Origin: Methylosarcina fibrata AML-C10
Lineage (GTDB): Bacteria; Pseudomonadota; Gammaproteobacteria; Methylococcales; Methylomonadaceae
Direction of reading: 5' to 3'
NCBI RefSeq assembly: GCF_000372865.1
Contig: NZ_KB889965.1
Span: 3,145,450 to 3,209,449, forward strand
DNA: 64,000 bases
Position numbers and translations under genes: made by a program. Of this stretch, positions 16,214 through 52,345 are shown piece after piece; position 1 is the stretch's first letter, and every line of letters starts with the position of its first letter. The notes beneath the pieces were generated by a model. It saw only the letters and a list, made by a program, of their open reading frames with translations, did no database searches and was not told the DNA's origin.

Positions 16214-16218
16214 TCGTC

Positions 16219-18472: not shown

Positions 18473-18690
18473 TGAAAAATTTCTATCGATTAATCTTCTC
18501 AAAAGCATCCGACACAGGGTACTCTGAAGAATCATTACTAACGAAGTTTGATTATTATGACGATGGCCTTCGCTCAATACGCACCGTCTTGATCGCCCGG
18601 CATTTCTGCCATTAACAAGTTGTCGGCTAAAAAGCGATCCCGTTTCCAGTCCCCCAGTTTCCATCCGTAGTATCCAAAAACAAAACCCAA
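18473..18690. other. Spacer between wzm and wzt, with a doubtful 47-codon frame
   Basis: An ATG overlapping the wzm stop (TAATG, 18472) opens a frame of 47 codons ending at 18615. Its composition is AT-richer than its neighbours and the product resembles nothing known to me. The rest shows no gene. This gap is unusual in an otherwise overlapping gene string and may be the remnant of a lost gene. Confidence 0.25.
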
Positions 18691-24937: not shown

Positions 24938-25023
24938 CGGCGCGTCGTCGCTGTAGACGTCACCCGCCGGCAACGAGCGGCTTGACCGGACAATTTAATC
25001 AATCGCTGGAATTAATCAAGGTC

Positions 25024-31994: not shown

Positions 31995-32911
31995 TAAAAA
32001 ATTATCTCTTTATTGCCAGAATAGACCACTGGTTTAAAAACGTATTCATGCTGCCAGGATTGGCTTTGGCTATAATATTTACTCACCCCGATATTTTACA
32101 AGCGATTACGCATTCTCTTATTGCCATATTTTCCACTTGTTTCATCGTTTCAGCCAACTACGTAATAAACGAATGGCTGGATGCCGAGTTCGACCAGCAT
32201 CATCCGGTCAAAAAACATCGCCCCGCAGTTGCAGGAAACATGAAGGCAGAATACGTTTACCTGGAGTACGCGCTATTTTCGATATTAGGACTTGGACTCG
32301 CTTTGCAGTTATCTTCAGTTTTTCTCATTTTTAGCGCATCCCTGTTATTCATGGGGATTCTATACAATGTAAGCCCATTCCGCACCAAAGACCGGGTTTA
32401 CCTGGACGTGCTATCAGAATCCTTTAACAACCCTTTACGTTTTTTGTTAGGCTGGACCGCGATAACCAGTCAGGTTTTTCCACCGTCAAGTATACTTTTG
32501 GCATATTGGATGGGCGGGGGATTTTTAATGGCCGTCAAGCGTTATGCAGAATACCGTTTCATCAACGATCCGAAAAAGGCAGGTTCGTACCGTCGATCGT
32601 TTAAGGTATATACGGAAAAGACCTTACTGTTGTCTTCTTTCTTCTATGCCATCACATCCTGTTTTTTTCTCGGTATATTCTTAATTAAATATAGGATTGA
32701 ATTTCTGCTGAGCTTTCCGCTATTTGCTTTATTATTCGTATGGTATTTGGGAATTGGCATGAAGCCCTTGTCTCCGACTCAGAGTCCGGAGAAATTTTAT
32801 CAAGAGAAGAACTTCATGATATATCTTATTTTTCTATGCCTGGTAGTATCATTGTTGTTTGTCATAGACATTCCATTTCTGCACAAACTGGTCGAGCCGC
32901 TGACCTATTGA
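31991..32911 (+). CDS. UbiA family prenyltransferase
   Basis: This is a 306-residue inner-membrane protein with about nine hydrophobic helices. The first Asp-rich UbiA motif appears as NYVINEWLDAEFDQHHPVKK, with the usual ND replaced by NE. The second cytoplasmic loop is YNVSPFRTKDRVYLDVLSES. Members close to Rv3806c transfer phosphoribose to polyprenyl phosphate; others prenylate quinone rings. Locus context favours sugar-lipid synthesis. The open frame begins far upstream, but the ATG at 31991 overlapping the methyltransferase stop gives the usual N-terminus (ARIDHWFKNVFMLPG). Confidence 0.8.
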   Translation: MIKNYLFIARIDHWFKNVFMLPGLALAIIFTHPDILQAITHSLIAIFSTCFIVSANYVINEWLDAEFDQHHPVKKHRPAVAGNMKAEYVYLEYALFSILGLGLALQLSSVFLIFSASLLFMGILYNVSPFRTKDRVYLDVLSESFNNPLRFLLGWTAITSQVFPPSSILLAYWMGGGFLMAVKRYAEYRFINDPKKAGSYRRSFKVYTEKTLLLSSFFYAITSCFFLGIFLIKYRIEFLLSFPLFALLFVWYLGIGMKPLSPTQSPEKFYQEKNFMIYLIFLCLVVSLLFVIDIPFLHKLVEPLTY

Positions 32912-34058: not shown

Positions 34059-34920
34059 ATCGGAACCAACCAGTGTAGCAGGCGGACTGACAGGCATCCC
34101 CATGAACGACATCCCTCTGAGCGCTAAAAACCGCATGAATAGCTTCACCGACAGTTTGCTGGAATCGGCTCAATTTACGCCTCTCTCGCTGCAAGCGCCC
34201 GGCGCCTGGTGCGGCCATCTGCCGTTCGCGGACTGGCTGACCCGGACGTTGCAGCCCAAACTCTTCGTCGAACTGGGCACCCATTCCGGCAATTCCTATT
34301 TCGCTTTCTGCCAGACCGTCCGCGAAGCCGGCCTGTCGACCCGCTGCTACGCCGTCGACACCTGGCGCGGCGACGACCATGCCGGACGCTACGGCGACGA
34401 CGTGTTCGAGAAAGTCCATGCCCACAACCGGGCGCATTACGCCGGCTTTTCCAACCTGCTGCGGATGACTTTCGACGAAGCGCTCGGCTATTTCGCCGAC
34501 GGTTCGATCGATCTGCTGCACGTCGACGGCCTGCACACTTACGAAGCGGTCCAACACGATTTCGACAGTTGGCGGCCCAAGCTCGCTCCGGGCGCCGTGG
34601 TGCTGTTCCACGACACCAACGTGCGCGAGCACGGTTTCGGCGTCTGGAAGCTGTGGCACGAACTTCAGGCCCGCTATGCCGGCCATCTGGAGTTTACCCA
34701 CTCCCACGGCCTGGGCGTGGTGCAGATCGACGGCGCCGAGGCCCGGCCGCTGCCCTGGCTGGACCCAAAGTCTCCGGCGCAGCGGCAGATGCAGCATTAT
34801 TTTGCCGCGCTCGGCGCGCTGCAACGGGAACGCTTGGAGCGAAACCTGGCGCAAAGCCGCCTGTCTGCCCTGACCCAAACGCTGACCGAGCTTCATCAGG
34901 CCGTCTCGGACCGGGACCGG
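34046..34920 (+). repeat. Duplicated segment, copy B (degraded wzt tail plus methyltransferase 5' part)
   Basis: This matches 19955-20850. The first 89 bp correspond to the wzt C-terminus (FF.SE.TSVAGGL.GIPMN can still be read). One A is missing from the A tract before the CCGCATG, which joins the wzt remnant in frame with the methyltransferase. At the coiled-coil start copy B lacks 21 bp present in copy A, exactly one heptad (RDEQLAE). Beyond 34920 the sequences diverge. Confidence 0.85.
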
Positions 34921-37900
34921 GAAATCGCAAATCTCAGGCAGGCGATTGCAGAATGCCAATGTCAGATAGCGGAATCGAACCGACTGCTCGGCACCCGCGA
35001 TCTGGAAATCAACGGCCTCAATCAGGCCATGGACGAGATTTCGGAGGAGATGGGCGCCTTGCGCAAGGCGGCTTTCGCGCAAGACGTACACTGCGCCGGA
35101 CTGGAGAAAGCGAACGCGGAAAAAGATCTTCAGATTCACCAATTGGCCTCCGCGGTTTCAACGCTGCAAGTGCACAATGCCGCTCTCGAACACCGGCTTG
35201 CCGAGTTGCTGAACAGTTCCTCCTGGCTGGTGACTCGGCCGATGCGCTTTCTGTCCCGGATCCTGAAAGGAGACTGGCTGGCGGTTAAAGACGGCTTGAC
35301 CAGGCATTTGGGCCCTCTGAATTTTCTTTTTCCCAAACGGCTTCCGGAGAATAAATCCCATTTATTGACCCAAGACTCCGCTCCCGGATTCGGCCCGGAA
35401 TGGCACAGCCATCTCGTGGACGTCGACGCCGTCCCGCCGGCCGCATCCGCCGGCCGCATCGGCGTCCACGTTCATATCTTTTATCAGGACCTCGCGGACG
35501 AATTTGCGGGCTATTTGAAGAACATCCCTTTCCCGTTCGATCTTTTCATTTCGGTCGTCGATAAAGAAGGACAGGCCATCTGCAAGCGAGCTTTTGCGAA
35601 GCTCATCCATTGCCGGAAACTGACGGTCAGGATCGTGGAGAACCGGGGGAGGGACATAGCGCCGCTGTTTTGCGCCTTCGGCGAGGAACTGGCACAGTAC
35701 GATTATCTGTGTCACCTGCACAGCAAGAAATCCCATTACAATAAAGGCGCCACCGAAGGCTGGCGCGAGTATTTGTGCACCCACCTGATGGGAAGCAAGG
35801 AGCGGGTGCAAAAAATCATCGGCCTCATGCAGGACAACTACGGCCGCGGCATCGTTTATCCTCAAAACTTCGTCCGCCTGCCGTACATGGCCAACAGTTG
35901 GCTGGCCAACCGGGCGATGGGCGCGGACTGGTGCGCCCGCCTGGGCATCCGGGACATGCCCTCCGGCTACTTCGACTTTCCGGCGGGCTCGATGTTCTGG
36001 GCGCGCGGCGACGCTCTGGCGCCGCTGTTCAAGGCCGGAATCCAACTGAACGACTTTCCCGAGGAAGCCGGCCAGACCGACGGCACCCTGGCGCACTGCA
36101 TCGAACGCCTGTTCGGGGTGGTTCCGGCAAGCCTGGGGCTGCCCCCCGGCATCATTAAAGACGTCCAGTTTCCCAGTTGGTCGGCGTGGCGATTCGACCA
36201 TTACATGAACCGGACCTTTCAGGACCTGGTCAGGGAATTTTATGCGAAAGAAGTCAAGGTCATCGGCTTCGACATCTTCGATACGCTGTTGTGCCGACCT
36301 TTGCTGGATGCCGAATCGGTCAAGGCCATCGTCGGCCGCCGCAGCGAAGAAGAAGCCGGCCGGCTCTACCTGAAGCACCGCTTCGAAGCGGAAAATCTGG
36401 CGAGAGAAAAGAAAGGATCGGACGTTTGCCTGGACGAAATCTATGCCCGAATGGCAGAGCTTGTCCCGCTCCCGGCAGAGACTCTGGCCGATTTGAGGCG
36501 CCTCGAGGAAGAAATTGAAATGGCCAGCGTCGGGCCGCGTGAACAATGCCTGGCGCTTTATCGTCAGGCGCTTGCCACCGGCAAGCCGGTGCTGTTGCTT
36601 TCGGACATGTTTCTGCCCCGTTCCGTGGTGGAAGCGATGTTGGCGCGTCACGGCATCGAAGGCTTCGAGGCCTTGTATTTATCCAATGACGTCGGCCTGA
36701 GAAAGGATTCGGGCCAATTGTACGAGCATGTGTTTGCCCGGTACGGCATCAAACCCTCCGAATTTCTGATGGTGGGAGACAACGAGCGTTCCGACTTCCA
36801 GATTCCCTGCGATCTGGGAGCCCGTTCTCTTTATATGCTGAAGCCGGTGGAAATTGCCCGCAGCCTGCCGCGATTCGGCGGCCTGATCCGGAAATACGAG
36901 AAATCCGACCTGGACGCCGAAGCGACTCTGGGGCTGGTGGTGCGAAAGAATTTCGCAGGCATCGCCCATCCCGGCTTTGATCCGCACTCACTGGTCGATC
37001 CGGCGCCTTTCAATCTGGGTTATTCCCTGGTCGGCCCATTGCTCGCCGGCTTCGCGCAATGGCTGGTCCGGACGTCCCGCAAGGACGGCATGCAAAAGCT
37101 GTATTTCCTGTCGCGCGAAGGAAAGCTCATCAAGCAGGTCTACGATTTCTGGACGCAAGGGTTGGCCGACGCGGCGCCTTCCGACTATCTGGTGCTGTCC
37201 AGAAGAGCGGTCAGCGTGCCCGCCTGTACCGGCCTCGACGACATTCTGGAGATTGCGAAAACCAATTATTGCGCCAATACGATAGAAAACTTTCTGCTGG
37301 AGCGTTATGGCCTGAATCTGGAAGACCGGCGCTGGAAAGAAATTACCCGGGCCACCGGCTGGAAGAGATCGGATACCGTCGAGGTCGCGCATAAAAAGAT
37401 TGCTTCTCTCGCTCCGCTGCTGGAAGCATTAACCCCGGAAATTCTGGAAAATGCACAATCGGAACACGCCGGCCTTCTGGCCTATCTGGCCGCCGGCGGA
37501 CTAAACAATAAAGGCCGATACGCCGTGGTCGACGTCGGTTACGGCGGCACGATCCAAAAATATCTGAACCGGATTCTGGACGGAAACATCCACGGGTACT
37601 ACATGATGACCGATGAAAGGATCGGCGACGTGGTTCGGGAGTACGACATCGTAACCCGCGGTTGTTTTCTGGAACAAATCAACTTGAACCAGCCTCTTCC
37701 CAAACTGTACCAATACAGTTTCGATCTGGAGAAATTTTTAAGCGCCGACGAACCGCAGATCATCCGCTATGAAGCGGACGAAAACGGCCATGCCGCCGCG
37801 GTATTCAGAACGCTGTCGGACGACGAGCGCGGATCTTGTGAATTTCGGAAATTGCTGACGGAAGGAGTGATGAGCTATGTGAGCGATGCCCGCAATCTCC

Positions 37901-38052
37901 GGGAGACGATGATTCCGGATTTCGTTCCGTCCCTGGCCGTGGCGAAGTCTCTGTACGAGTCGTTCGTTTCCCGCCATTCGGAGAATGAAAAAGCCTCATT
38001 GGCCGCCGTTACCCTGGACGACTATTACTATGGCCGCGGTCTGGTTTCATAA
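34135..38052 (+). CDS. Methyltransferase / coiled-coil / RgpF-like / HAD-like fusion protein
   Basis: This is a 1305-residue paralogue of the protein at 20045. Residues 1-235 are the same SAM methyltransferase with about a dozen substitutions. Residues ~240-365 are a less regular coiled coil ending in SSSWLVTRPMRFL. Residues ~442-680 are an RgpF-like domain (HLHSKKS at 527, FPAGSMFWAR). Residues ~707-920 are a HAD-like hydrolase domain (FDIFDTLL with Asp713, LLLSDMFLP, VGDNERSDF), similar to COG5610. Residues 930-1305 are a C-terminal region often joined to that HAD type (YFLSREGKLIKQVYDFW). The ATG at 34135 matches the start of the paralogue. An in-frame ATG at 34102 lies in the copied wzt tail and is probably not the original start. 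Confidence 0.82.
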   Translation: MNSFTDSLLESAQFTPLSLQAPGAWCGHLPFADWLTRTLQPKLFVELGTHSGNSYFAFCQTVREAGLSTRCYAVDTWRGDDHAGRYGDDVFEKVHAHNRAHYAGFSNLLRMTFDEALGYFADGSIDLLHVDGLHTYEAVQHDFDSWRPKLAPGAVVLFHDTNVREHGFGVWKLWHELQARYAGHLEFTHSHGLGVVQIDGAEARPLPWLDPKSPAQRQMQHYFAALGALQRERLERNLAQSRLSALTQTLTELHQAVSDRDREIANLRQAIAECQCQIAESNRLLGTRDLEINGLNQAMDEISEEMGALRKAAFAQDVHCAGLEKANAEKDLQIHQLASAVSTLQVHNAALEHRLAELLNSSSWLVTRPMRFLSRILKGDWLAVKDGLTRHLGPLNFLFPKRLPENKSHLLTQDSAPGFGPEWHSHLVDVDAVPPAASAGRIGVHVHIFYQDLADEFAGYLKNIPFPFDLFISVVDKEGQAICKRAFAKLIHCRKLTVRIVENRGRDIAPLFCAFGEELAQYDYLCHLHSKKSHYNKGATEGWREYLCTHLMGSKERVQKIIGLMQDNYGRGIVYPQNFVRLPYMANSWLANRAMGADWCARLGIRDMPSGYFDFPAGSMFWARGDALAPLFKAGIQLNDFPEEAGQTDGTLAHCIERLFGVVPASLGLPPGIIKDVQFPSWSAWRFDHYMNRTFQDLVREFYAKEVKVIGFDIFDTLLCRPLLDAESVKAIVGRRSEEEAGRLYLKHRFEAENLAREKKGSDVCLDEIYARMAELVPLPAETLADLRRLEEEIEMASVGPREQCLALYRQALATGKPVLLLSDMFLPRSVVEAMLARHGIEGFEALYLSNDVGLRKDSGQLYEHVFARYGIKPSEFLMVGDNERSDFQIPCDLGARSLYMLKPVEIARSLPRFGGLIRKYEKSDLDAEATLGLVVRKNFAGIAHPGFDPHSLVDPAPFNLGYSLVGPLLAGFAQWLVRTSRKDGMQKLYFLSREGKLIKQVYDFWTQGLADAAPSDYLVLSRRAVSVPACTGLDDILEIAKTNYCANTIENFLLERYGLNLEDRRWKEITRATGWKRSDTVEVAHKKIASLAPLLEALTPEILENAQSEHAGLLAYLAAGGLNNKGRYAVVDVGYGGTIQKYLNRILDGNIHGYYMMTDERIGDVVREYDIVTRGCFLEQINLNQPLPKLYQYSFDLEKFLSADEPQIIRYEADENGHAAAVFRTLSDDERGSCEFRKLLTEGVMSYVSDARNLRETMIPDFVPSLAVAKSLYESFVSRHSENEKASLAAVTLDDYYYGRGLVS

Positions 38053-40749: not shown

Positions 40750-41961
40750 ATGAAAAATTTCAAATTCCTGGTGCTTGGCGCCGGACCGAGCGGATTGACC
40801 GTCGCTCATGCCCTGATCGACGCCGGCTGTTCTCCTACCGAGATCGCCGTCCTCGAACAGCACGAGGTCGCCGGCGGCTTGTGCCGTTCCGAAACCGTGG
40901 ACGGCGCGCCGCTCGACGTCGGAGGCGGCCACTTTCTGGACGTCAAACGCAAGGAAGTTCTGGATTTCGTGTTCCGCTTCATGCCGCAGGAAGAATGGAA
41001 CCTGTTCGAGCGCGTGTCGAAGATTCGCATTCGCGGCATGGAAATCGATCATCCGCTGGAAGCCAACCTTTGGCAGCTTCCGGTCGAGACCCAGGCCGAT
41101 TTTCTCGAATCCATCGCCGAGGCCGGGTGCGTGCGGGGCGAGCCCATGCCCGAATCGTTCGCCGAATGGATCCGATGGAAGCTGGGCGAACGCATCGCCG
41201 AGGAATACATGCTGCCCTACAACCGCAAGATCTGGTCGATGGATCCCGATCGGCTCGGCACGTACTGGCTGTACAAGCTTCCCGACGTCTCGTTCCGGGA
41301 AACGCTGTTAAGCTGCCTGGAAGGAAAGCCGATGGGCGCCCTGCCCGCGCACGGCACGTTTTTGTACCCGAAAAAATTCGGCTACGGCGAGGTATGGCGG
41401 CGCATGGGCGAAGCATTGGGCGACTCGCTCGTGGCGAACTGCAAGGTTGAACACATCGATTTGTCTACCCGCACCGTCAACGGGCAGTGGCGGGCGAAGA
41501 CGATCATCTCCACGATTCCGTGGACTTTGTGGCCGGGATGCTGCGATTTACCCAACGACATTCTGGAAGCCGTCGCCGTCTTGAAAAACGCGCCCATCGA
41601 CGTCGACTACCACCCCGAAACGCTGGACAGCCGGGCCCACTGGATCTACGAACCGAACGAGTCGATCGCCCATCACCGCTTGCTGCTGCGCGCCAATTTT
41701 GCCATGGGATCGCGAGGCTACTGGACCGAGACCAATGCCGCCCGCTCCCCCAAAAGCGAAAGCACGCGTTTCCATAACGAATTCGCCTATCCCGTCAATA
41801 CGCTCGGCAAGCCGGAAGCCGTCCGGAAAATTCTGGCCTGGGCGCGCGGCCACGGCATTCTCGGGCTCGGGCGCTGGGGCCGGTGGGAGCACATGAATTC
41901 CGACGTCGCGGTCGCCGAAGCATTGCAGATGGCCGCCGAATTAAACATAGAGGTTGCATGA
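40750..41961 (+). CDS. FAD-dependent mutase/amine-oxidase-like protein (UDP-galactopyranose mutase-like)
   Basis: This is a 403-residue flavoprotein. The N-terminal dinucleotide motif is GAGPSGLTVAHAL (from residue 10), followed by GGLCRSETVDGAPLDVGGGH. EEYMLPYNRKIW and the C-terminal LGRWGRWEHMNSDVAVAEAL are typical of Glf-related and protoporphyrinogen-oxidase-like proteins of glycan loci. A sugar ring contraction (pyranose to furanose) or another lipid-sugar redox step is possible; the substrate cannot be read from sequence. Its stop overlaps the GT2 start (ATGA). Confidence 0.72.
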   Translation: MKNFKFLVLGAGPSGLTVAHALIDAGCSPTEIAVLEQHEVAGGLCRSETVDGAPLDVGGGHFLDVKRKEVLDFVFRFMPQEEWNLFERVSKIRIRGMEIDHPLEANLWQLPVETQADFLESIAEAGCVRGEPMPESFAEWIRWKLGERIAEEYMLPYNRKIWSMDPDRLGTYWLYKLPDVSFRETLLSCLEGKPMGALPAHGTFLYPKKFGYGEVWRRMGEALGDSLVANCKVEHIDLSTRTVNGQWRAKTIISTIPWTLWPGCCDLPNDILEAVAVLKNAPIDVDYHPETLDSRAHWIYEPNESIAHHRLLLRANFAMGSRGYWTETNAARSPKSESTRFHNEFAYPVNTLGKPEAVRKILAWARGHGILGLGRWGRWEHMNSDVAVAEALQMAAELNIEVA

Positions 41962-42644
41962 AAATTTCGCTTTGCCTGATCGTATGGAACGAGCTTCAAG
42001 GGTGTCAAACAGATGTGCCGACGCTTCCTCGAGAGGAATTCGATGAAATCTTTGCCGTGGACGGCGGCAGTACCGACGGCACCGTGGCGTATCTGGAAAG
42101 CTGCGGCATTCCGGTGTACCGCCAGCCCAAACGCGGTCTGAACGCGGCCTACGTGCACGCCGACCGCATGGCGGCCGGCGATGCCGTGGTCGTGTTTTTT
42201 CCCAAAGGCACCCTGCCCACCGGCGACTTGCGCAAGTTTCGCCCGCTTTTCGAGCAAGGCTGCGAACTGGTGATCGCAAGCCGGCAAATCAAAGGCTCTC
42301 GAAACGAAGAAGACGCTCATTTCTGGCGCCCGCGCAAATGGGCCGTCAAAGGGCTGGCTGCCCTGGCCGGCCTGGTCTGGCGCCGCGAGGGAGCCTGGGT
42401 CTGGGACGTATTGCACGGCGTCAAAGGCTGGAAACGTTCGGCCTTCGAACGCATGAACATCCTGGAAACCGGCTTGTCGATCGACGTCGAAATGGTGATC
42501 CGTTCCTACAAGCTGCGCATTCCGCGCGTCGAGTTTCCGACCCGGGAAACCGCCAGGGACTACGGAGAGAGTCATTTCAAGATATGGCCGACGGGCAAAC
42601 GGCTGCTGGCTTATCTTTGGTACGAGCTGAGACGACATGACTGA
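41958..42644 (+). CDS. Family 2 glycosyltransferase
   Basis: This is a 228-residue GT-A enzyme related to dolichol/polyprenyl-phosphate sugar synthases. It shows the nucleotide-binding IVWNELQGC start and the DGGSTDGT motif. It lacks a C-terminal membrane anchor. The ATG at 41958 overlaps the preceding stop. Its own end overlaps the next gene by 8 bp. The trio flavoprotein-GT2-flippase suggests synthesis and flipping of a lipid-linked sugar. Confidence 0.82.
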   Translation: MKISLCLIVWNELQGCQTDVPTLPREEFDEIFAVDGGSTDGTVAYLESCGIPVYRQPKRGLNAAYVHADRMAAGDAVVVFFPKGTLPTGDLRKFRPLFEQGCELVIASRQIKGSRNEEDAHFWRPRKWAVKGLAALAGLVWRREGAWVWDVLHGVKGWKRSAFERMNILETGLSIDVEMVIRSYKLRIPRVEFPTRETARDYGESHFKIWPTGKRLLAYLWYELRRHD

Positions 42645-43665
42645 GCAAGTAATAACGGTCAAACCTCAAGGCCGGCTGCGCCGAACCGTGTCTTCCCTCT
42701 GGTTCAAATTGGCGATCGCCGCCGGCGTGATCGGTCTATTGATTTATTACAATCGCATCGATTTCAACGTACTGGCGTCGCTCAGGCACACCTGGCCCTG
42801 GCTGCTGGCCGCGTTCCTGCTGTCGCTGCCGCCTTTCCTGATCGTCTCTTTCCGTTTCAGGATCCTCCTCGCCAGCCAGGGCATCGACGTGCCGTTCCGT
42901 CAGGCTCTGCGCTGGACCATGGTCGGTTCCTTCTTCGACCTGGGCATGCCGAGTTCGAACGGCGGCGACGTGGTCAAGGCGGGCTACGTGGTCGAACACG
43001 TCGGCGCGGGGCTCAGGACCCGCGCGGTGATGGCGGTGGCGTTCGACCGGATCATCGGCTTGCTCGGGCTGTTTTTGCTGGCCAGCCTGGCCTGCCTTCT
43101 CGGCTGGGAGATGTTAAGCGATCTGCCGGCGCGGCATGTGGTGGCGGGCCTGTCGCTGGCCGCCGGAATCGGGCCGCTGATTGCTTTTCCCGTTCTAGGA
43201 TCGCGACGGCTTTATCACAACCCGACCTTGAACCGCTGGTTGGAGTCGCATACGTGGGGGCTGCGCTTGCGGCAGATGATCGGCTCGTTCAATTCTCTGC
43301 GGGAAAACGCCGGCGTACTGTTCGCCGCCCTGGGCTTGTCCATGCTCAACCACGTCTTCTGGTGCACGGCGCTCCTGTTCATTACCTTCGCGGTCGGCAA
43401 CGAGGTTTCGCCTCTGAAAGGATTCATCGTGTTTCCGCTGGCGATCTTCGGCGGAATTTTCGGCGTGGCCGGCGGCTTCGGCATCGGCACAGCGGCCTTC
43501 GATTTTCTGCTCTCCCATCTGTTGATGGTGCAAAACGGCGCGCTGATCGGGCTGCTGTTTCAAACGATCGGCGCCCTGTCGCGGCTGATGGGCCTGCCCT
43601 TCTATCTGGCGTCGATGCAGCGCCGCGGCCGCAGGCCTGCCGAAGCCGCGCAAAATACGAATTGA
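42637..43665 (+). CDS. Flippase-like integral membrane protein (LPG synthase TM / UPF0104 family)
   Basis: This 342-residue protein has about eight hydrophobic helices with the family pattern GSFFDLGMPSSNGGDVVKAGYV near residue 90 and GxxGGxGIGTAAFDF near 275. Members resemble the membrane half of MprF and AglD, and are often placed beside polyprenyl-phosphate glycosyltransferases. A role in moving a lipid-linked sugar is inferred from the neighbouring GT2 gene (41958-42644). Confidence 0.82.
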   Translation: MTEQVITVKPQGRLRRTVSSLWFKLAIAAGVIGLLIYYNRIDFNVLASLRHTWPWLLAAFLLSLPPFLIVSFRFRILLASQGIDVPFRQALRWTMVGSFFDLGMPSSNGGDVVKAGYVVEHVGAGLRTRAVMAVAFDRIIGLLGLFLLASLACLLGWEMLSDLPARHVVAGLSLAAGIGPLIAFPVLGSRRLYHNPTLNRWLESHTWGLRLRQMIGSFNSLRENAGVLFAALGLSMLNHVFWCTALLFITFAVGNEVSPLKGFIVFPLAIFGGIFGVAGGFGIGTAAFDFLLSHLLMVQNGALIGLLFQTIGALSRLMGLPFYLASMQRRGRRPAEAAQNTN

Positions 43666-44068: not shown

Positions 44069-45502
44069 TTGAACTTGTATCCTCTTGTAGTTGATCTCGA
44101 CGGCACACTGATTCACACAGACATGCTCCACGAATCGGCATTAAGAGTTCTGCGCGATAGCCCGCTTTATACATTGCATATCCCTTATTGGTTGTCACGG
44201 GGTAAGGCTGCACTTAAGCAGAATTTAGCCAACCGTTCCGATTTTGACCCAAGCAGCCTCCCTTACAACAAGGAGTTACTGGAATGGTTAAGGCAACAAA
44301 AGGCTTTAGGCCGGAAACTGGTCTTATGCACCGCTTCCGACCTTTCCATAGCCACCGCCATATCGGAACACCTGGGCGTTTTTGATGAAGTGATGGCAAG
44401 TGACGGCGTCAGGAACTTGGCGGGAAAACACAAGGCGGAGTTGCTCGTGCAGTGTTTCGGTCATGCCGGTTTCGATTATGCCGGAAACTCCAATGCCGAC
44501 CTGGCGGTCTGGCAACAAGCTCATAAAGCAGTAGTCGTCAATGCTTCTGACGCCTTGATCAAAAAAGCAAGCGCTTATTGCGAAGTAGAGCGGGTATTTC
44601 CTTCCCCCGCTTTAGAATTCAAGGTTTGGCGCCGCGTGTTCCGGGTGCACCAATGGCTGAAGAACTTGCTGTTATTCGTGCCCATCCTGGCGGCTCACCA
44701 ATTGACCAACCCCGATATCTGGCTGGAGCTCATTCTGGCTTTTTTTTCATTCAGCCTGTGCGCTTCCTCGGTTTACATCGCCAACGATCTGCTGGATCTG
44801 GAAAGCGACCGGCAACATCCTCGCAAATGCAAACGGCCTTTTGCCTCCGGTCTGGTTCCGGCCTGGATGGGCGTGGTTCTGGCTCCCGTACTGCTGTTCA
44901 GCAGCCTGGCATTAGCCCGGCATGTAGGAGAGGCCTTCTTTTCCTGGTTGCTGTTTTATTTTGCCTTGACCTGCGCTTATTCCTGGATGCTTAAGCGCGT
45001 GATGCTGATAGACTGCCTGACGTTGGCCATGCTTTATACCTTGCGCATCGTTGCGGGCGCCGCCGCTGTTGAAATGAGTCTGTCTTTCTGGCTGCTGGCG
45101 TTTTCCGTCTTTTTATTTTTGTCCTTGGCTTTTGTCAAACGGTATGCCGAATTGGAGGTGCAACTGCTGCACGGAAAGCAAAAAGCTCACGGTCGCGGTT
45201 ATTACACTTCGGATGCCTCTTTGCTGCAAACGATGGGCATCACGTCGGGCTATGCCGCCGTTCTGGTGCTGGCGCTTTATCTTAACAGCGACGCCATATT
45301 GAAGCTCTATCGTACCCCCGAATGGGTATGGGGAGCGGTACCCATTATGCTGTTCTGGGTCAGTTGGATGTGGATGCAGGCTCATCGGGGCAAAATGCAT
45401 GACGACCCTTTGGTCTTCGCCGTTAAAGACAAAGCCAGCCTGCTGTCGGGCGTGGCTTTTTCCATCGTTCTGGCTATCGGTACCCTGGGATGGCCATGGT
45501 AA
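44069..45502 (+). CDS. HAD phosphatase-UbiA prenyltransferase fusion (polyprenyl-phosphate phosphoribosyltransferase type)
   Basis: This is a 477-residue protein starting at TTG. Residues 1-185 are a HAD phosphatase: DLDGTLIHTD motif I, LVLCTASD motif II, DYAGNSNADLAVW motif IV. Residues 190-477 are a UbiA membrane domain with YIANDLLDLESDRQHP (NDxxDxxxD) and LIDCLTLAMLYTLRIVAGA. In mycobacteria Rv3806c (UbiA) makes decaprenyl-phosphoryl-5-phosphoribose, and a phosphatase removes the 5-phosphate. This fusion would supply both steps. DprE1-like and DprE2-like genes follow directly, which supports the reading. AAGGAC lies 11 bp upstream of the TTG. Confidence 0.85.
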   Translation: MNLYPLVVDLDGTLIHTDMLHESALRVLRDSPLYTLHIPYWLSRGKAALKQNLANRSDFDPSSLPYNKELLEWLRQQKALGRKLVLCTASDLSIATAISEHLGVFDEVMASDGVRNLAGKHKAELLVQCFGHAGFDYAGNSNADLAVWQQAHKAVVVNASDALIKKASAYCEVERVFPSPALEFKVWRRVFRVHQWLKNLLLFVPILAAHQLTNPDIWLELILAFFSFSLCASSVYIANDLLDLESDRQHPRKCKRPFASGLVPAWMGVVLAPVLLFSSLALARHVGEAFFSWLLFYFALTCAYSWMLKRVMLIDCLTLAMLYTLRIVAGAAAVEMSLSFWLLAFSVFLFLSLAFVKRYAELEVQLLHGKQKAHGRGYYTSDASLLQTMGITSGYAAVLVLALYLNSDAILKLYRTPEWVWGAVPIMLFWVSWMWMQAHRGKMHDDPLVFAVKDKASLLSGVAFSIVLAIGTLGWPW

Positions 45503-46794
45503 AAGTTTCATCCTGGGGAAGACTGGACCATTGCGAACATGAAGTTCGAGTACTGACCGATCGGTATCAAGTCATCAATCAGCTAAAAAACAAACGCCCC
45601 GGTCTGGCTTACGGCATGGGACGCAGTTATGGCGACGCTTGTCTCAATCCGGGCGGCGCATTATGGAACACGACTGGCCTGGACCGGTTTATCGGCTTCA
45701 ACGAGAACACGGGCAGACTGGTCTGTGAATCCGGCCTGCTCTTGCGCGATATTCAACGCCTGGTTGTTCCGAGAGGCTGGATTCTTCCCGTTACCCCCGG
45801 AACCCAGTTGATAACGGTGGGCGGAGCCATTGCCAACGACGTGCATGGAAAGAATCATCACGCATTCGGCTCCTTCGGCGATCATGTGCGGAGGATCAAA
45901 CTGGCGCGCACGGACACGACGTGCATTGAGTGCGGACCTGACCGGAAACCCGACTGGTTTGCCGCCACCGTGGGCGGTCTCGGTCTTACCGGCCTCATTA
46001 CCGAAGCCGAAATTCAACTGCGCCGGATAGCCGGCCCATGGCTTGACGCCGAGACCCTGCCCTATACCGATCTGGACGAGTTTTTCCATTTGTGCGACGA
46101 TTCGGAAAGCGGCTGGGAACATACCGTTTCCTGGATCGACTGTATTCATAAAGGTGAAGGACGCGGGCTTTTCATGCGGGCCAAGCCGGCGAACGAACCC
46201 TCCCGTCCGGAGCCGTCACCCCGCAAACTGACGATTCCGTTCGTCCCCCCCGTATCTCTGGTTAACGGCCTTTCGCTTAGAGCGTTCAATACGGCCTACT
46301 TCAACGCCAAAAAGCAGCAATCAGGCAGAAGCATCGTCCATTATGAGCCTTTCTTCTATCCGCTCGACAATCTGCTGGAATGGAACCGGATGTATGGCCC
46401 TAAAGGCTTCTATCAGTACCAGAGTGTGGTGCCGCGTGAAGTTGGACGTGATGCCGTGCAGGCCATGCTGAATGAAATTGCCGGCGCCGGTGAAGGATCC
46501 TTCCTGACCGTATTGAAAACCTTCGGCAATCGTCAGCCCCTCGGCATGATGAGTTTTCCGCAGCCGGGCGTCACTCTGGCTCTGGATTTTCCCAACCGGG
46601 GAGAGCGGACGCTTAAGCTCTTCGATCGGCTGGATGCGATTGTCCGCGAAGCCGGCGGGCGAATTTATCCGGCCAAAGACGCTCGCATGCCTCGGGATCT
46701 ATTCGAATCGGGCTACCCTCGCCTCTCAGAATTTCTGCCATATCGCGATCCCGGCATCAGCTCGGCGCTGTCCCGAAGACTCATAGGAAATTAA
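45490..46794 (+). CDS. DprE1-like FAD-dependent decaprenylphosphoryl-ribose oxidase
   Basis: This 434-residue protein has an N-terminal FAD_binding_4 domain. Seen are GMGRSYGDACLNPGG, PVTPGTQLITVGGAIANDVH and GKNHHAFGSFGDHV, as in DprE1. The C-terminal ALO-type domain has RMYGPKGFYQYQSVVP. DprE1 oxidises C2 of polyprenyl-phosphoribose; DprE2 then reduces it to the arabinose epimer. At TLALDFP the residue that aligns with the benzothiazinone-target Cys of mycobacterial DprE1 appears to be Ala. The gene overlaps the preceding UbiA gene. ATG codons at 45490 and 45496 are both possible starts. Confidence 0.85.
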   Translation: MAMVKVSSWGRLDHCEHEVRVLTDRYQVINQLKNKRPGLAYGMGRSYGDACLNPGGALWNTTGLDRFIGFNENTGRLVCESGLLLRDIQRLVVPRGWILPVTPGTQLITVGGAIANDVHGKNHHAFGSFGDHVRRIKLARTDTTCIECGPDRKPDWFAATVGGLGLTGLITEAEIQLRRIAGPWLDAETLPYTDLDEFFHLCDDSESGWEHTVSWIDCIHKGEGRGLFMRAKPANEPSRPEPSPRKLTIPFVPPVSLVNGLSLRAFNTAYFNAKKQQSGRSIVHYEPFFYPLDNLLEWNRMYGPKGFYQYQSVVPREVGRDAVQAMLNEIAGAGEGSFLTVLKTFGNRQPLGMMSFPQPGVTLALDFPNRGERTLKLFDRLDAIVREAGGRIYPAKDARMPRDLFESGYPRLSEFLPYRDPGISSALSRRLIGN

Positions 46795-46798
46795 TACC

Positions 46799-47554
46799 AT
46801 GTCCCGTCCCCATAAAAGAATCGTCATCATCGGCGCAACCTCGGCAATTGCAGAACACTGTGCCCGTTTATGGGCCCACAATGCCGCGGTGGATCTGACC
46901 CTGGTCGGCCGTGACCCGGACAAAACGGAGCGAGTCGCCGCTGACCTTCGGGTTCGCAGCCCACAATCCGCCATACGCGTTCTCGCAGCCAATTTCACCG
47001 ATCCCGTCGCCATCCGCCAACTGGTGAATGAGATCACCGCCGAAGGACCCGTTCATACCGTGCTGATTGCCCACGGTTCGCTGCCGGACCAGGCCGCATG
47101 CCAACAGGACTTGACTGCATGCCAGGAAGCGCTGATTATTAATGCCATCTCTCCGGTACTGTTTGCAGAGGCGTTTGCCGGCTCCATGGAAAAGAACAAT
47201 CGAGGAACGCTGGCAATTATCGGGTCGGTGGCCGGAGACAGAGGACGCAAGTCGAATTACGTCTATGGCGCCGCGAAGGGATTGGTGACGCGTTATGCAC
47301 AGGGACTTCAACATCGTCTGGCAAATACCGACGTAAAAGTCGTTCTGATCAAGCCCGGACCGACCGATACGCCGATGACCGCACACATTAAAGAACAAGG
47401 CGGTGATCTCGCCAGTGTAGAAGCGGTGGCTCAGTCCATCGTTCAGGGAATCGATCAGGGAAAGCCTGTTATCTATGTACCGGCCAAATGGCTATTGATC
47501 ATGATGATCATTCGGCACTTGCCTCGTTTTATTTTTAATAAAATGGATATATGA
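46799..47554 (+). CDS. DprE2-like short-chain dehydrogenase
   Basis: This 251-residue SDR protein has a nucleotide-binding motif, IIGATSAIAEHCA, in the variant form typical of DprE2 rather than the usual TGxxxGIG. IGSVAGDRGRKSNYVYGAAK contains the catalytic Ser and YxxxK. It would reduce the 2-keto intermediate made by the DprE1-like enzyme. Its start is 4 bp after the DprE1-like stop. Its stop overlaps the next gene (ATGA), so all four genes look like one unit. Confidence 0.85.
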   Translation: MSRPHKRIVIIGATSAIAEHCARLWAHNAAVDLTLVGRDPDKTERVAADLRVRSPQSAIRVLAANFTDPVAIRQLVNEITAEGPVHTVLIAHGSLPDQAACQQDLTACQEALIINAISPVLFAEAFAGSMEKNNRGTLAIIGSVAGDRGRKSNYVYGAAKGLVTRYAQGLQHRLANTDVKVVLIKPGPTDTPMTAHIKEQGGDLASVEAVAQSIVQGIDQGKPVIYVPAKWLLIMMIIRHLPRFIFNKMDI

Positions 47555-49701
47555 ACAAGACATCAACGGTATTAAAAGAAAAAAATTTAATACTGGCCTT
47601 TGCAGGTTTTGCCCTATGGATGGTTGGGCTGACCGTCGTCGGCGCCGTTCGTACCTACTCGCCCGTACCGTTTTGGGATATGTGGGACGGCACCCTCGGA
47701 TTTTTTATGCGCTTGGACGGGGAGAATAATGAATGGTGGATGCAGCATAATGAACACCGCATTCTTCTGGCTCGTTTGTTGTTCTGGGCCGATTTTAAAT
47801 TCTTTGATGGCGCCAACTGGTTTTTAACAGCTTTCAATTATTTTTTGATCGGCGGAAGCGCGTGGGTGTTTTATCGAATACTTCGCGCAGCAGCCGCCAC
47901 GGAAAAACCGGCCACGGAAGAAGTTTTGCTGGGGCTTTTCCTGACCGCCTGGCTGTTCCTGTGGACGCAAAAGGAAAACATGACGTGGGGTTTCCAGAGC
48001 CAGTTCATCCTGGCTCAACTGTTGCCGCTGTGCGGTTTGTACTGGCTCTACAAGTCGCTCGCCGGAATTCATGCAAAGCGCCATTTTCTTACTGCATGCG
48101 TCTTTGGTTTGGCTTCTGCAGGCACCATGGCCAACGGCGTTCTTGCTTTACCCTTAATGACATGCTACGCGCTTGTCGCGAGGCAAAACCGGCTGCGCAC
48201 CGGCATATTGCTCAGTCTTTCCGCCGCCATGCTTTTCCTGTATTTTCACGACTATCGCTCACCGGCTGCACACAGCACCCTATCGCAAGCTTTGAGAGAA
48301 AATCCGTTCGGCCTGCTTCAATTCGTGTTGCGCTATCTCGGCGGTCCATTTTATTTTCTTTTCGGAAAAGAAGAACTTGGCAAACTGATGATGAATGGAG
48401 CGGCACTGTTTCTGATAGGAAGTTCCGTCGGCTTCACCGTCAAAGCTCTGCGCCGGCCTCAGGAAAACACGCTGACACTGGCACTGCTGTTCTTTATTCT
48501 TTACATAGGAGGCAGCGCTCTGGGCACGGCCGGGGGACGCCTGGTTTTCGGGCTCGATCATGCCTTTGCCAGCCGCTATACCACGCCTCCTTTAATGGCA
48601 TGGGCCGCTTTACTGGTTCTGTACTCACCCTCTGTGCTGGCCGCTTTAAAAACGAAGAGCGCAACAGTTCTACTCGCGTTGGCAATGCTTGCATTGCCCA
48701 TGGCCATTTTCCAGACGGAAGCAATGCAACCGGACTATGCGAAAGTGTTCCAACGAAAAATAGCTGCCCTCGCGCTTGATCTTCAAGCGAGGGATGAAAA
48801 ACAGATTAAAACTGTTTATCCGGATCCTCGGCGAGCTTTGGTAATAGCCAAAGAGGCTTCCGTTCGAAATCTTTCCATCTTCGGCGACTATCCTTCCCGT
48901 GATATGAGAGAACAATGGGGCCTGACAGTGCCACAGCAGACGTTGCCGGCCTGCCAGGGCCATCTGGACGCAGTGGAGGAAATCGATGGGGAGGGCCGTC
49001 TTATCCATGTCTATGGATGGATGTTTAACGTCGCCGGTAAAAACTATCCCGACGTCATTCGCTTCCTGGGAAGCCAGGGAAAGGTCGTAGGCTATGGGCT
49101 CACGGGTCAACCCAGGCCCGATCTCGCCAAGGCCATCGATAAAAAAGCGTTCCGTGCCGGCTTCCAAGGCTATCTGCTGGCGAATCAGAGAGGCAAGATG
49201 CTCACTCTGCTGGGAGAAAATCCTGCCTGCCAACTGCAGGTAAAAGTTCCGGCGCCTATCATATCCCTTACTTCGGCTGCCGGAAAGATCACTGCATCGC
49301 TTTTCTTCACCGAACAGTCAGTGAAGAACGCCACTCTTGACGGATCAACCGTTCTGCCCGGAAATCAGTGGATAGGTTCCGATTACTACAGGTCAATGAT
49401 CGACGGCCTGCAGGTTTACGGAAGCCATATCGACTCCGATGCGAACATAGGGAGCATTTCATTACGGGTCAAACGCGGGGATCGGCTTTTCTACCGATCG
49501 GGCCCGAAAGGGGGACAGCAGGTTCTCGAAATATCCGGCAGTGCCATTCCTCCGATTAAACTCCCCGTTGCCAAAGCATGGGCTCTTCTGGATTTGAACA
49601 ATGCGCTATTGCCGGAGGGGACTTTTACAGTGAAATTTTCGGACAATGGCGCGGGCTGGGGAGAATGGTCCGCCATAGCCGTTCGGCAAAGCAGTCATTA
49701 A
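47551..49701 (+). CDS. Large membrane protein, candidate pentosyltransferase (GT-C-like)
   Basis: This is a 716-residue protein. About ten hydrophobic helices occupy residues 15-395. A loop after the first helix holds VPFWDMWDGTLGFF, the acidic site position of GT-C lipid-sugar transferases. Residues ~420-716 are a soluble, probably periplasmic domain including YGWMFNVAGKNYPD. The family is not firmly recognised. Coupling to the DprE2-like gene makes it the best candidate in the window for using the polyprenyl-phosphate pentose. That role is inference from position. Confidence 0.6.
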   Translation: MNKTSTVLKEKNLILAFAGFALWMVGLTVVGAVRTYSPVPFWDMWDGTLGFFMRLDGENNEWWMQHNEHRILLARLLFWADFKFFDGANWFLTAFNYFLIGGSAWVFYRILRAAAATEKPATEEVLLGLFLTAWLFLWTQKENMTWGFQSQFILAQLLPLCGLYWLYKSLAGIHAKRHFLTACVFGLASAGTMANGVLALPLMTCYALVARQNRLRTGILLSLSAAMLFLYFHDYRSPAAHSTLSQALRENPFGLLQFVLRYLGGPFYFLFGKEELGKLMMNGAALFLIGSSVGFTVKALRRPQENTLTLALLFFILYIGGSALGTAGGRLVFGLDHAFASRYTTPPLMAWAALLVLYSPSVLAALKTKSATVLLALAMLALPMAIFQTEAMQPDYAKVFQRKIAALALDLQARDEKQIKTVYPDPRRALVIAKEASVRNLSIFGDYPSRDMREQWGLTVPQQTLPACQGHLDAVEEIDGEGRLIHVYGWMFNVAGKNYPDVIRFLGSQGKVVGYGLTGQPRPDLAKAIDKKAFRAGFQGYLLANQRGKMLTLLGENPACQLQVKVPAPIISLTSAAGKITASLFFTEQSVKNATLDGSTVLPGNQWIGSDYYRSMIDGLQVYGSHIDSDANIGSISLRVKRGDRLFYRSGPKGGQQVLEISGSAIPPIKLPVAKAWALLDLNNALLPEGTFTVKFSDNGAGWGEWSAIAVRQSSH

Positions 49702-49713
49702 ACTGGATAGATC

Positions 49714-50658
49714 ATGCAATTAAAACACAAAAAAATAATACTTCCCGGCGGCGCCGGACTGGTCGGCCAAAATCTCGTCGCCCGCCTTAAAGCAAAGGGA
49801 TACCAAGAGATCGTCGTGCTCGACAAACATCGGAGCAATTTGGCCGTCCTGAACCGGGTTCAGCCCGATATTATCGCAGAATATGCCGATCTGGCTTATC
49901 CGGGCGACTGGCAGCGGCATTTTGCAGGGGCTGACGTCGTCGTGATGCTGCAAGCCCAGATCGGCGGCACGGATTATCAGGAGTTCGTCCGCAACAATCT
50001 GGAATCGACCCGGCTGATCCTCGACGCCGTCAAAATCAACCAGATACCCTACCTGGTCCATATCAGTTCTTCGGTGGTGGAATCGGTAGCCGACGATTTC
50101 TATACCAATACCAAAAAGGAACAGGAACGGATGGTGCTGGAGAGCGGCATCCCCTGCCCTGTATTGCGCCCGACCCTGATGTTCGGCTGGTTCGACCGCA
50201 AGCATTTGGGCTGGTTGTCGCGGTTCATGAAAAAAATGCCTATTTTCCCGATCCCCGGAGACGGCCGCTACATGCGCCAGCCGCTGTATGTGGGCGACTT
50301 CTGCAACATCATTATCAGTTGCATCGAAAACGGAATCGCCGGCGGCGTTTACAACATCTCGGGCCATGAGAAGGTGGATTACATCGACATCATTCGCGAA
50401 ATCAAACGTGCGACGGGAGCCCGCGCATTGATCACCAGGATTCCCTATGGATTGTTTTACTCGTTGCTGTGGATCTGGGAGCTGTTCGATAAAAACCCGC
50501 CGTTCACAACCCAGCAACTGGCCGCCCTCACTGCCAAGGACGAGTTCGAGGTGATCGACTGGCCCGGTATTTTCGGGGTGCCTTGTACGCCTTTTATCGA
50601 AGCCATCAATGAAACCTTTAATGACCCGGCCTATGGCACGGTCATCCTGGAGTTCTGA
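49714..50658 (+). CDS. NAD-dependent epimerase/dehydratase family protein
   Basis: This 314-residue extended SDR protein has the motif [10 protein letters not shown] (residues 11-20) and catalytic Ser and YTNTK (Tyr/Lys). The C-terminal part has [11 protein letters not shown], a mildly hydrophobic stretch. It acts on a nucleotide- or lipid-linked sugar; the exact substrate is not evident. It lies 12 bp after the membrane protein gene and 2 bp before the next flavoprotein. Confidence 0.8.
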
Positions 50659-50660
50659 CG

Positions 50661-51947
50661 ATGAAGCAGCGCATTGCCGTGCTGGGAGCGGGACCCATGG
50701 GCCTGGCCGTGGCTTTTCAATTGGCGCGCGACGGTCACCAGCCGGTTGTTTTCGAAGCGGATGATCGCATAGGCGGCATGACCGCCTCGTTCGATTTTTC
50801 CGGCTTGACCATCGAGCGTTACTATCATTTTCATTGCATCTCCGACGAGGCTTTTTTGAAGGTGCTGGACGAATTGGCGATAGCCGACAAAATGCGCTGG
50901 ACCGAAACGAAAATGGGTTACTGGTATCAGGGACAATTGCAGCCCTGGGGCAACCCCATGGCGTTACTCAAGTTTCAAGGCTTGAGCCTCGCCGCCAAAT
51001 TCCGTTACGGTCTCCATGCCTTCCTCTCGACCCGACGCAACGACTGGCAACCGCTGGATCAAGTCGAAGCGACGGGCTGGATCAAACGCTGGGTGGGCGA
51101 GGAAGCTTACGAAGTCTTGTGGCGCCGGTTATTCGACTACAAGTTTTACGATTTTTCCACGAACCTGTCGGCGGCCTGGATCTGGAGCCGGATACGGCGA
51201 ATCGGACGTTCGCGCTACAGTCTGTTCCGCGAAAAACTGGGTTATCTGGAAGGCGGTTCGGAAACGCTGCTCCGGGCCCTGCGCGCGGATATTGAAAAGC
51301 ACGGCGGTGAAATTCGCCTCAACTCTCCGGTCGGCAAAGTCGTCATCGAAGAGGCGAAGGTGCGAGGCATAGAAACGGACGGACGATTCGAAGCCTTCGA
51401 CAAGGTCATCAGCACCGTCCCTTTGCCTTACGTGCCCAGTTTGATGCCTGATTTACCCTCTTCGATACTGCAAAGTTACCGATCGGTCAACAACATCGCG
51501 GTGGTCTGCGTAATCGTAAAACTGCGTCAAGCGGTAACCGAGAACTTCTGGTTGAACACGAACGATCCCGACATGGACATTCCGGGTTTGGTGGAGTACA
51601 CCAATTTAAGACCCCTGGATCGGCACATTGTTTATGTCCCTTTTTATATGCCGGGGGAACACCCTAAATTTGCCGAGCCGGATCAAATATTCCTCGACAA
51701 AGTGCGCCGCTATTTGAAGAAGATCAACCCCCGGTTAAGCGACGAGGACTTCATTGAGCTGCGCGCAAGCCGCTACCGTTATGCTCAGCCCATTTGCGAT
51801 CCGGGCTATCTCGACAAGCTGCCCCCGGCCGCGCTGCCGGTCGAAGGCCTGTGGGCCGCGGATACTTCTTATTATTATCCGGAAGACAGAGGCATTTCCG
51901 AAAGTATCGATTTCGGCAGAAAAATGGCAAGGGAAGCAACGGCGTGA
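50661..51947 (+). CDS. NAD(P)/FAD-dependent amine-oxidase-like oxidoreductase
   Basis: This is a 428-residue flavoprotein with [17 protein letters not shown] and [15 protein letters not shown] at the N-terminus. [21 protein letters not shown] and the C-terminal [19 protein letters not shown] are typical of protoporphyrinogen-oxidase-like proteins in glycan loci. It is distantly like the protein at 40750-41961. The pair epimerase-flavoprotein followed by GtrA is seen in other polysaccharide clusters, from memory. A redox step on a lipid-linked sugar is possible. Its stop overlaps the GtrA start (GTGA). Confidence 0.75.
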
Positions 51948-52345
51948 TTCGGCAATTTTTTTCGCGGCAATTTCTGATCTTTTTACTGACCGGCGGAACC
52001 GCCGCGGCGGTCAATTTCGGCTCCAGAATCGTCTATAGCCACTGGCTGGAGTTTTCCACCGCGGTAATCTGCGCCTACCTTACCGGAATGACCACCGCCT
52101 TCGTATTGGCCAAACTGTTTGTATTCCGGGAGAGCCGGCAAGCAGTGCATCGTTCGGCCTTCTTTTTCATTCTGGTGAACTTGGTCGCCGTATCGCAAAC
52201 CTGGGCCATCAGCATGGGCCTGGCCTATTATCTTCTGCCCCGCTGGGGAATAACCTTGTTCGCAAAGGAAATCGCTCATGCGGTCGGCGTGGCGGTCCCC
52301 GTATTTACCAGTTATATCGGTCACAAGCGCTGGTCCTTTCGCTAA
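51944..52345 (+). CDS. GtrA family membrane protein
   Basis: This 133-residue protein has four hydrophobic helices: [16 protein letters not shown] at the start and [13 protein letters not shown] at the end. The start is GTG at 51944, overlapping the preceding stop, with AGGGAAG about 9 bp upstream. No ATG in frame fits. It is the second GtrA in this locus and could flip the polyprenyl-phosphate pentose or another lipid-linked sugar. Confidence 0.83.

Follow-up and report, generated by a model that had tools for sequence, protein, structure and literature searches.

This work concerns a run of seven genes at positions 44069-52345 of a window of 64,000 nucleotides from the methanotroph Methylosarcina fibrata AML-C10 (contig NZ_KB889965.1), all positions given here being those of the window. 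It is likely that the proteins of this operon produce polyprenyl-phosphate D-arabinofuranose, flip it and employ it for the decoration of a surface polysaccharide exported by an ATP-binding cassette (ABC) transporter. Our analysis supports this by gene order, predicted folds, catalytic residues and conservation, and from these we infer arabinose as the product, flipping by the GtrA-family protein, the acceptor and the role of the GT-C-fold membrane protein. The kind of pathway is already known, and the locus adds an example from a methanotroph. The genes, which presumably form one operon and yield one transcript, are the following.

44069-45502, + strand: HAD-UbiA fusion of 477 amino acids, an open reading frame (ORF) with matches to NF006088 and 8j8j.
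45490-46794, + strand: DprE1-like oxidase of 434 amino acids dependent on flavin adenine dinucleotide (FAD), overlapping the fusion by 13 nucleotides; putative first half of the C2 epimerisation.
46799-47554, + strand: DprE2-like reductase of 251 amino acids, a short-chain dehydrogenase/reductase (SDR), after a 4-nucleotide gap behind DprE1; putative second half of the C2 epimerisation.
47551-49701, + strand: membrane protein of 716 amino acids with a predicted GT-C fold, overlapping the DprE2 gene by 4 nucleotides.
49714-50658, + strand: extended SDR of the epimerase/dehydratase family (PF01370, 67.6 bits).
50661-51947, + strand: FAD oxidoreductase of the PRK07233 family (NF005560, 572.9 bits, cut-off 252; PF01593, 116.3 bits).
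51944-52345, + strand: GtrA-family protein, which may flip the lipid-linked pentose (PF04138, 51.8 bits, cut-off 26.1).

A sequence-only reading of this DNA had described a HAD-UbiA fusion, a DprE1-like protein, a DprE2-like protein and a large membrane protein in overlapping order, and the ORFs between 44069 and 49701 indeed overlap or lie no more than 5 nucleotides apart. These four genes are present; the run does not end with them, however, but continues with the SDR, FAD and GtrA genes to 52345. The GtrA gene probably starts with GTG at 51944 and overlaps the stop codon of the FAD gene, and in the ORF list the run is flanked by gaps of about 400 nucleotides upstream and about 200 nucleotides downstream. 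Donor synthase, flippase candidate and GT-C protein are found together at 44069-52345, which is the three-component layout of periplasmic pentofuranosylation. The complete set of seven recurs in Methylovulum miyakonense HT12 (L042).

In the proposed pathway, phosphoribosyl pyrophosphate (PRPP) would be converted to polyprenyl-phosphate-ribofuranose and this to polyprenyl-phosphate-arabinofuranose, with subsequent transfer outside the membrane. The fused HAD domain would remove the 5-phosphate, DprE1 would oxidise C2 and DprE2 would reduce the resulting ketone to give polyprenyl-phosphate-arabinofuranose, the sugar presumably being D-arabinose. GtrA would aid the crossing of the membrane and the GT-C enzyme would move the arabinofuranose onto the polysaccharide, possibly held by the beta-rich tail of the enzyme. 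The first two steps, from PRPP through removal of the 5-phosphate, have been demonstrated with a homologous enzyme (Kelly et al. 2024, PMC11127046) and may by analogy be expected here. The assignment to a pathway of the mycobacterial decaprenyl-phosphoryl-arabinofuranose type, already put forward in the sequence-only reading, agrees with the published biochemistry of ORF15 from Citrobacter youngae (PMC11127046) as well as with our sequence, fold and gene-order comparisons.

The fusion consists of a HAD phosphatase domain (residues 1-182, about 44069-44614) and a UbiA-fold polyprenyl-phosphate phosphoribosyltransferase (residues 183-477). It matches NF006088 ('UbiA family prenyltransferase') with 684.7 bits over residues 4-472, passing the cut-off of 351, and its closest sequence in the PDB is that of the mycobacterial DPPRS 8j8j (E 7.6e-28). 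In the AlphaFold2 (AF2) model, which has a mean pLDDT (predicted local distance difference test) of 92.2, the UbiA half (183-475) matches 8j8j with a VIA Z of 28.4 and a root-mean-square deviation of 3.0 over 286 residues (TM 0.81, relative to target length); the highest Z for a UbiA homologue that is not a DPPRS is 21.8. The HAD half (1-180) matches 3fvv with Z 17.1 over 177 residues and SerB structures with Z of about 14-15. D9 and D11 of the DxDGT motif, which provides the HAD nucleophile, are invariant in 20 aligned rows, as are N239, D243, D247, R358 and E361, and D240 is kept in at least 90% of them; the motifs N-D-x-x-D-x-x-x-D and R-x-x-E are thereby both present. Matched by motif, N247, D248, D251 and D255 of C. 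youngae ORF15 correspond to N239, D240, D243 and D247 of the fusion, and the DxDGT aspartate and R358/E361 fit D18 (phosphatase) and R366/E369 of ORF15, of which R366 and E369 can be replaced without visible loss in vivo (PMC11127046). ORF15 forms farnesyl-phosphate-ribofuranose from PRPP, as established by thin-layer chromatography, mass spectrometry and nuclear magnetic resonance, and its HAD mutant yields the 5-phosphate product, with some ribofuranose still formed (PMC11127046). The earlier suggestion that the fused phosphatase supplies a step performed elsewhere by a separate enzyme has therefore already been proved biochemically for a homologous fusion. A scan of viral contigs with the fusion returned two pattern matches and no confirmed relative.

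An ordinary aromatic prenyltransferase activity of the UbiA half, with a HAD half unrelated to it, is extremely improbable. Pfam does label the fusion UbiA (79.9 bits, next to 29.9 bits for HAD), but the genome contains two further genes that score 237-241 bits with the UbiA model, against 81 for the fusion, and therefore probably fill the aromatic prenyltransferase role; moreover, the nearest model, the nearest PDB sequence and the nearest fold of the UbiA half are all those of phosphoribosyltransferases.

For the DprE1-like protein (45490-46794), in which FAD_binding_4 is present, the best PDB sequences are those of DprE1 (E 1.3e-67). The equivalent of Lys418, which we take to be the catalytic residue of DprE1, is a lysine in 142 of 143 aligned rows, a collection of overlapping sets in which the window was entered twice and some genomes repeat named loci. 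Benzothiazinones presumably modify DprE1 via Cys387, and the sequence-only reading had suggested such a compound as an enzyme probe. This proposal has little promise, as Cys387 of the mycobacterial enzyme aligns with Ala364 of the protein in the window and the position is occupied by alanine in 131 and by threonine in 12 of the 143 rows. A benzothiazinone is therefore unlikely to act as a covalent inhibitor, and for the proteobacterial DprE1 enzymes covered here these compounds make poor probes. The missing cysteine bears on inhibitor binding, not on DprE1 function.

The neighbourhood of fusion and DprE pair was followed through 80 named loci with HAD-UbiA genes, of which 74 extend at least 2.5 kb downstream and 61 are fused and extend at least 8 kb downstream. 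DprE1 lies no more than 500 nucleotides downstream on the same strand in 65 of the 74, DprE2 directly follows DprE1 in 63 of them, and DprE1 adjoins the fusion in 55 of the 61. A survey of the phylum, in which 397 genomes were searched for DprE1, gave 72 genomes with a match at E 1e-40 or better (71 fetched loci plus the window); DprE2 is situated within 250 nucleotides of DprE1 in 64 of these loci. As to the closest phosphoribosyl-type UbiA, 45 loci have it as a HAD fusion, 10 as a single gene and 5 inside a long ORF without HAD profile match, while in 12 the fetched stretch contains none. Among 151 genomes searched in the same family, 14 have a DprE1 match above 200 bits, and 12 of these carry a UbiA gene (at least 182 bits to NF006088, or cut by a contig end) within about 1.6 kb of DprE1. 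Of the remaining two, G125 has the genes 133 kb apart and G132 has them on different contigs. Since UbiA and DprE1 are neighbours in 12 of 14 genomes of the family as well as in 65 of 74 named loci, their association is not due to chance. At L125 (G125:C1:240000-252000) and L124, HAD-UbiA is contained in an open frame of 801 amino acids, about 133 kb from the DprE1 gene of that genome.

Loci with an unfused UbiA bear on the function of the HAD domain. We counted 15 of them, ten from the survey plus L119-L123, with L124-L128 excluded (UbiA missing, truncated at a contig end or not on the DprE1 contig); six of the 15 clusters contain a stand-alone HAD gene, compared with none of the 45 fused survey loci. 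The count is partly circular, because three of the six positives seeded the HAD profile and three are independent. Within the family of M. fibrata, four of five fetched unfused loci possess such a gene (L119-L122, not L123), and those of L119-L121, the three tested, match TIGR01490 above the cut-off. These stand-alone genes lend moderate support to a role of the HAD domain as the 5-phosphatase.

The 716-residue membrane protein gave no match in Pfam and NCBIfam searches at 0.01. Its AF2 model has a mean pLDDT of 85.3, with values mostly of 56-87 in the tail, and matches AglB (VIA Z 17.3), ArnT (16.2), AftB (14.1), EmbB (13.9) and AftA (12.4); rows 1-38 of the search are by title all GT-C-type enzymes or subunits (Z 8.7-17.3). 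Invariant in 20 aligned rows are D43, W45, N67-E68-H69-R70 and R330, and P40 and N143 are kept as well. The beta-rich C-terminal part comprises residues from about 469 to 716, and for its segment 592-712 the matches include carbohydrate-binding jelly rolls (2waa, Z 6.5; CBM35 2w87, Z 5.2) and equally, at Z of about 5, domains of unrelated proteins. The fold search hardly covered residues 469-575, some Emb matches span both the membrane and the tail part, and the final 150 residues are absent from several relatives. Matches to the protein were obtained in 4 of 61 genomes, counting that of M. fibrata, and in 19 of the 80 named loci; it varies far more than the donor genes, which fits an acceptor-specific enzyme. 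The protein is probably the arabinofuranosyltransferase. Locus L039 (13480-17003) contains two tandem relatives that both end in GEWSAIA, and the same motif ends the GT-C protein in the window.

Several observations weigh against an arabinofuranose pathway as proposed. The DprE1-like protein scores 335.5 bits with NF053785, below the cut-off of 500, a result softened by the fact that none of the 397 genomes of the phylum passes it. The DprE2-like protein likewise stays below the cut-offs of the DprE2 model NF053786 (155.7 bits, cut-off 250) and of NF005489 (251.1 bits, cut-off 267). Foldseek returned only two matches at E <=0.001 for the GT-C model, AftA (2.6e-4) and a protease, and the modelled GT-C fold reveals neither donor nor acceptor. 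Twelve of the 72 survey loci lack UbiA in the fetched stretch, five of which score below 330 bits and may represent other oxidases, and nine of the 15 unfused loci are without a HAD gene of the tested type. GtrA is missing from part of the loci, with 40 positives among 55 named loci and 34 among the 72 of the survey. Finally, the conserved SDR and FAD enzymes mean that the donor could be altered further.

Two versions of the cluster exist in the family to which M. fibrata belongs. The NF006088 cut-off is passed in 27 of the 151 genomes (G064 being unfused and G022 and G056 cut by contig ends), nine with and 18 without a DprE1 match above 200 bits; the 83.5 bits obtained for G052 were too weak to be counted. 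A HAD-UbiA fusion alone therefore does not mean arabinose. The 18 loci without DprE1 are all fused, and none of them has a profile match to DprE1, DprE2, GtrA, FAD or SDR. Judged by a simple hydropathy count, 13 of the 18 have a neighbouring 4-5-helix ORF (122-151 codons), and 17 have a 7-12-helix ORF (about 410-600 codons) no more than 2.6 kb away. Three of the small helical proteins were tested, one of which lies at the EamA cut-off (28.2 bits), one below it and one without match. By analogy, these 18 loci resemble the published ribofuranose-type system. On the other side, GtrA accompanies DprE1 in eight of 12 DprE1-bearing loci of the family that were inspected (the window, L042, L120-L122, L128, L221 and L222) and is not found in L119, L123, L124 and L126, so that the arabinose-type module usually, not always, comes with GtrA.

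That plain ribofuranose is added in M. fibrata as well, with a DprE pair that is inactive or acts elsewhere, is very improbable. The ribofuranose-type appearance of the other HAD-UbiA clusters in the family without DprE1/E2 speaks for it, and the lipid-ribose step comes first under either interpretation; yet the DprE1 and DprE2 genes are intact inside the run, the Lys418 equivalent is kept, and the pair is conserved in the named loci to the extent given above (63 of 74).

The SDR and FAD enzymes encoded downstream of the GT-C gene are conserved, almost inseparable and unexplained by the pathway outlined here. The SDR occurs in 36 of the 80 named loci and is accompanied by the FAD gene in 35, the exception being L056, whose 8.4-kb contig breaks off within the SDR gene; the two adjoin in 31 of the 35 loci with both. 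None of the 61 fused loci has one without the other, and in the survey both occur together in nine of 72 loci and neither alone in any. SDR, FAD and GtrA are all present in 31 of the 55 named DprE1-adjacent loci with at least 8 kb downstream. The YxxxK motif of the SDR (Y130) is kept in 46 of 47 rows, the remaining row showing a gap. Comparison of both enzymes with PDB sequences gave weak, mixed matches, among them, for the FAD enzyme, phytoene desaturase and protoporphyrinogen oxidase. A role of the FAD enzyme in altering the lipid carrier was considered, and nothing beyond this likeness spoke for it.

PRK07233-type FAD genes are present in 12 of the 151 genomes of the family, seven of which lack a DprE1 match above 200 bits. 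The SDR is absent from all seven fetched stretches of these genomes; in six a GT2-like gene and a multi-helix gene, recognised by eye from the sequences, stand beside the FAD gene, and the seventh stretch starts at a contig end. The FAD enzyme may thus serve lipid-linked sugar pathways in general.

It appears unlikely that the final sugar is not plain arabinofuranose because the SDR and FAD enzymes modify the lipid-linked pentose before export, for example by C3 epimerisation to xylo- or lyxofuranose. In favour of such a modification, the coupling of both genes is near perfect (35 of 36 SDR-bearing named loci, nine of nine in the survey), every SDR among the 80 named loci sits with DprE1, none of the 18 DprE1-less loci of the family has SDR or FAD, and a GalE-type SDR decides between xylo and ribo in C. 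youngae O2 (PMC11127046). Against it, 24 of the 55 DprE1-adjacent loci with at least 8 kb downstream are without both genes, and the FAD enzyme need not act on the pentose, since seven genomes of the family carry its gene with neither DprE1 above 200 bits nor SDR. In addition, L216 has SDR, FAD and GtrA but no DprE1 within 16 kb, the DprE1 gene of that genome being located on a 3.1-kb contig. We regard as quite unlikely the more far-reaching notion that two stacked redox pairs act on one lipid-linked pentose in many Proteobacteria, DprE1/DprE2 at C2 and SDR/FAD at a different carbon, and yield the doubly inverted polyprenyl-phosphate-lyxofuranose or another pentofuranose. According to Kelly et al., lyxofuranose occurs in no solved carbohydrate structure (PMC11127046); dihydrohydroxystreptose, a branched L-lyxofuranose, is named in Coxiella lipopolysaccharide (PMC9503072). 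Three loci titled Xanthomonas contain DprE1/E2, SDR, FAD and GtrA together, and Xanthomonas has been reported to possess multiple candidate epimerases (PMC11127046).

With polyprenyl-phosphate D-arabinofuranose as the probable donor, the locus can be set beside known systems. With mycobacteria (Rv3806c, Rv3807c, DprE1, DprE2, Rv3789, AftA/AftB/Emb) it shares the reaction order, homologous PPPRS, DprE1 and DprE2 and the GT-C type of the arabinosyltransferases. It differs in the phosphatase, a fused HAD domain rather than Rv3807c, in a presumably undecaprenyl carrier and in the absence of the benzothiazinone-reactive cysteine; an arabinogalactan acceptor is unlikely. Rv3789 is a member of the GtrA family. 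The protein has also been called a member of the SMR family (PMC11127046). In the available parts of PMC10412643 and PMC12826051, DprE1/UbiA are mentioned only for mycobacteria and corynebacteria.

The likeness to the O1/O2 clusters of C. youngae (ORF12-ORF15) concerns the HAD phosphatase (PRP) fused to a UbiA-type PPPRS, a GT-C protein with a beta-rich C-terminal domain, the setting of a Wzm/Wzt-dependent, rhamnose-containing polysaccharide and the use of optional epimerases to set the identity of the pentose (PMC11127046). In C. youngae the GT-C protein is ORF12, of CAZy family GT136. C. youngae employs a small MATE/EmrE-like flippase, and O2 has a single SDR epimerase, ORF13 (PMC11127046), whereas the window encodes GtrA, DprE1/DprE2 and the additional SDR and FAD enzymes. 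DprE1/E2 homologues have been linked to arabinofuranose-containing glycans by Kelly et al. 2024 (PMC11127046). Arabinosylation of type IV pilins in Pseudomonas (TfpW, PPPRS) is comparable as a Gram-negative system with PPPRS and a proposed arabinofuranose donor, but serves pilin glycosylation, and P. aeruginosa has PPPRS and phosphatase as two distinct proteins (PMC11127046). No further paper on a Gram-negative pathway appeared among the titles of the literature matches listed, which is no proof of absence.

The surroundings of the seven genes are in line with the polysaccharide as acceptor.
14268-20052, + strand: rmlB-, rmlD-, rmlA- and rmlC-like genes, an ABC-2 permease (Wzm-like) and Wzt with a C-terminal domain, identified with Pfam.

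RgpF-type and other glycosyltransferases come after the Wzm/Wzt genes, still upstream of the run. These genes mark an ABC-transporter-dependent polysaccharide locus whose product probably contains rhamnose. Two giant proteins (20045-24937 and 34102-38052) with near-identical Methyltransf_24 N-terminal parts and RgpF domains form a duplicated pair; a membrane protein of 1036 amino acids without Pfam match (24934-28044) and a DUF7657/DUF7654 protein (28365-30914) are possibly further GT-C enzymes. A second, divergent UbiA-type gene lies beside a methyltransferase gene at 31712-32911 (protein about 31982-32908). Its best model is decaprenyl-phosphate phosphoribosyltransferase with 77 bits (cut-off 234), NE replaces ND in the aspartate motif, and genes in six relatives show similar partial scores (77-91 bits). 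Just upstream of the run, at 40750-43665, genes for a FAD enzyme, a GT2 and an LPG_synthase_TM flippase-like protein overlap one another; by eye this set is like the GT2/membrane/FAD gene sets of L212-L215 and L217-L219.

The cell wall in tuberculosis is the best-known setting of lipid-linked pentofuranose chemistry, and the present genes add a surface polysaccharide locus of a methanotroph. The interest of the locus lies in the conserved SDR-FAD pair and in the split into two versions rather than in the pathway itself. As a genomic guide we suggest distinguishing two types of HAD-UbiA loci, one lacking DprE1 and encoding a small DMT-like protein, the other with DprE1/E2 and often, not always, GtrA.

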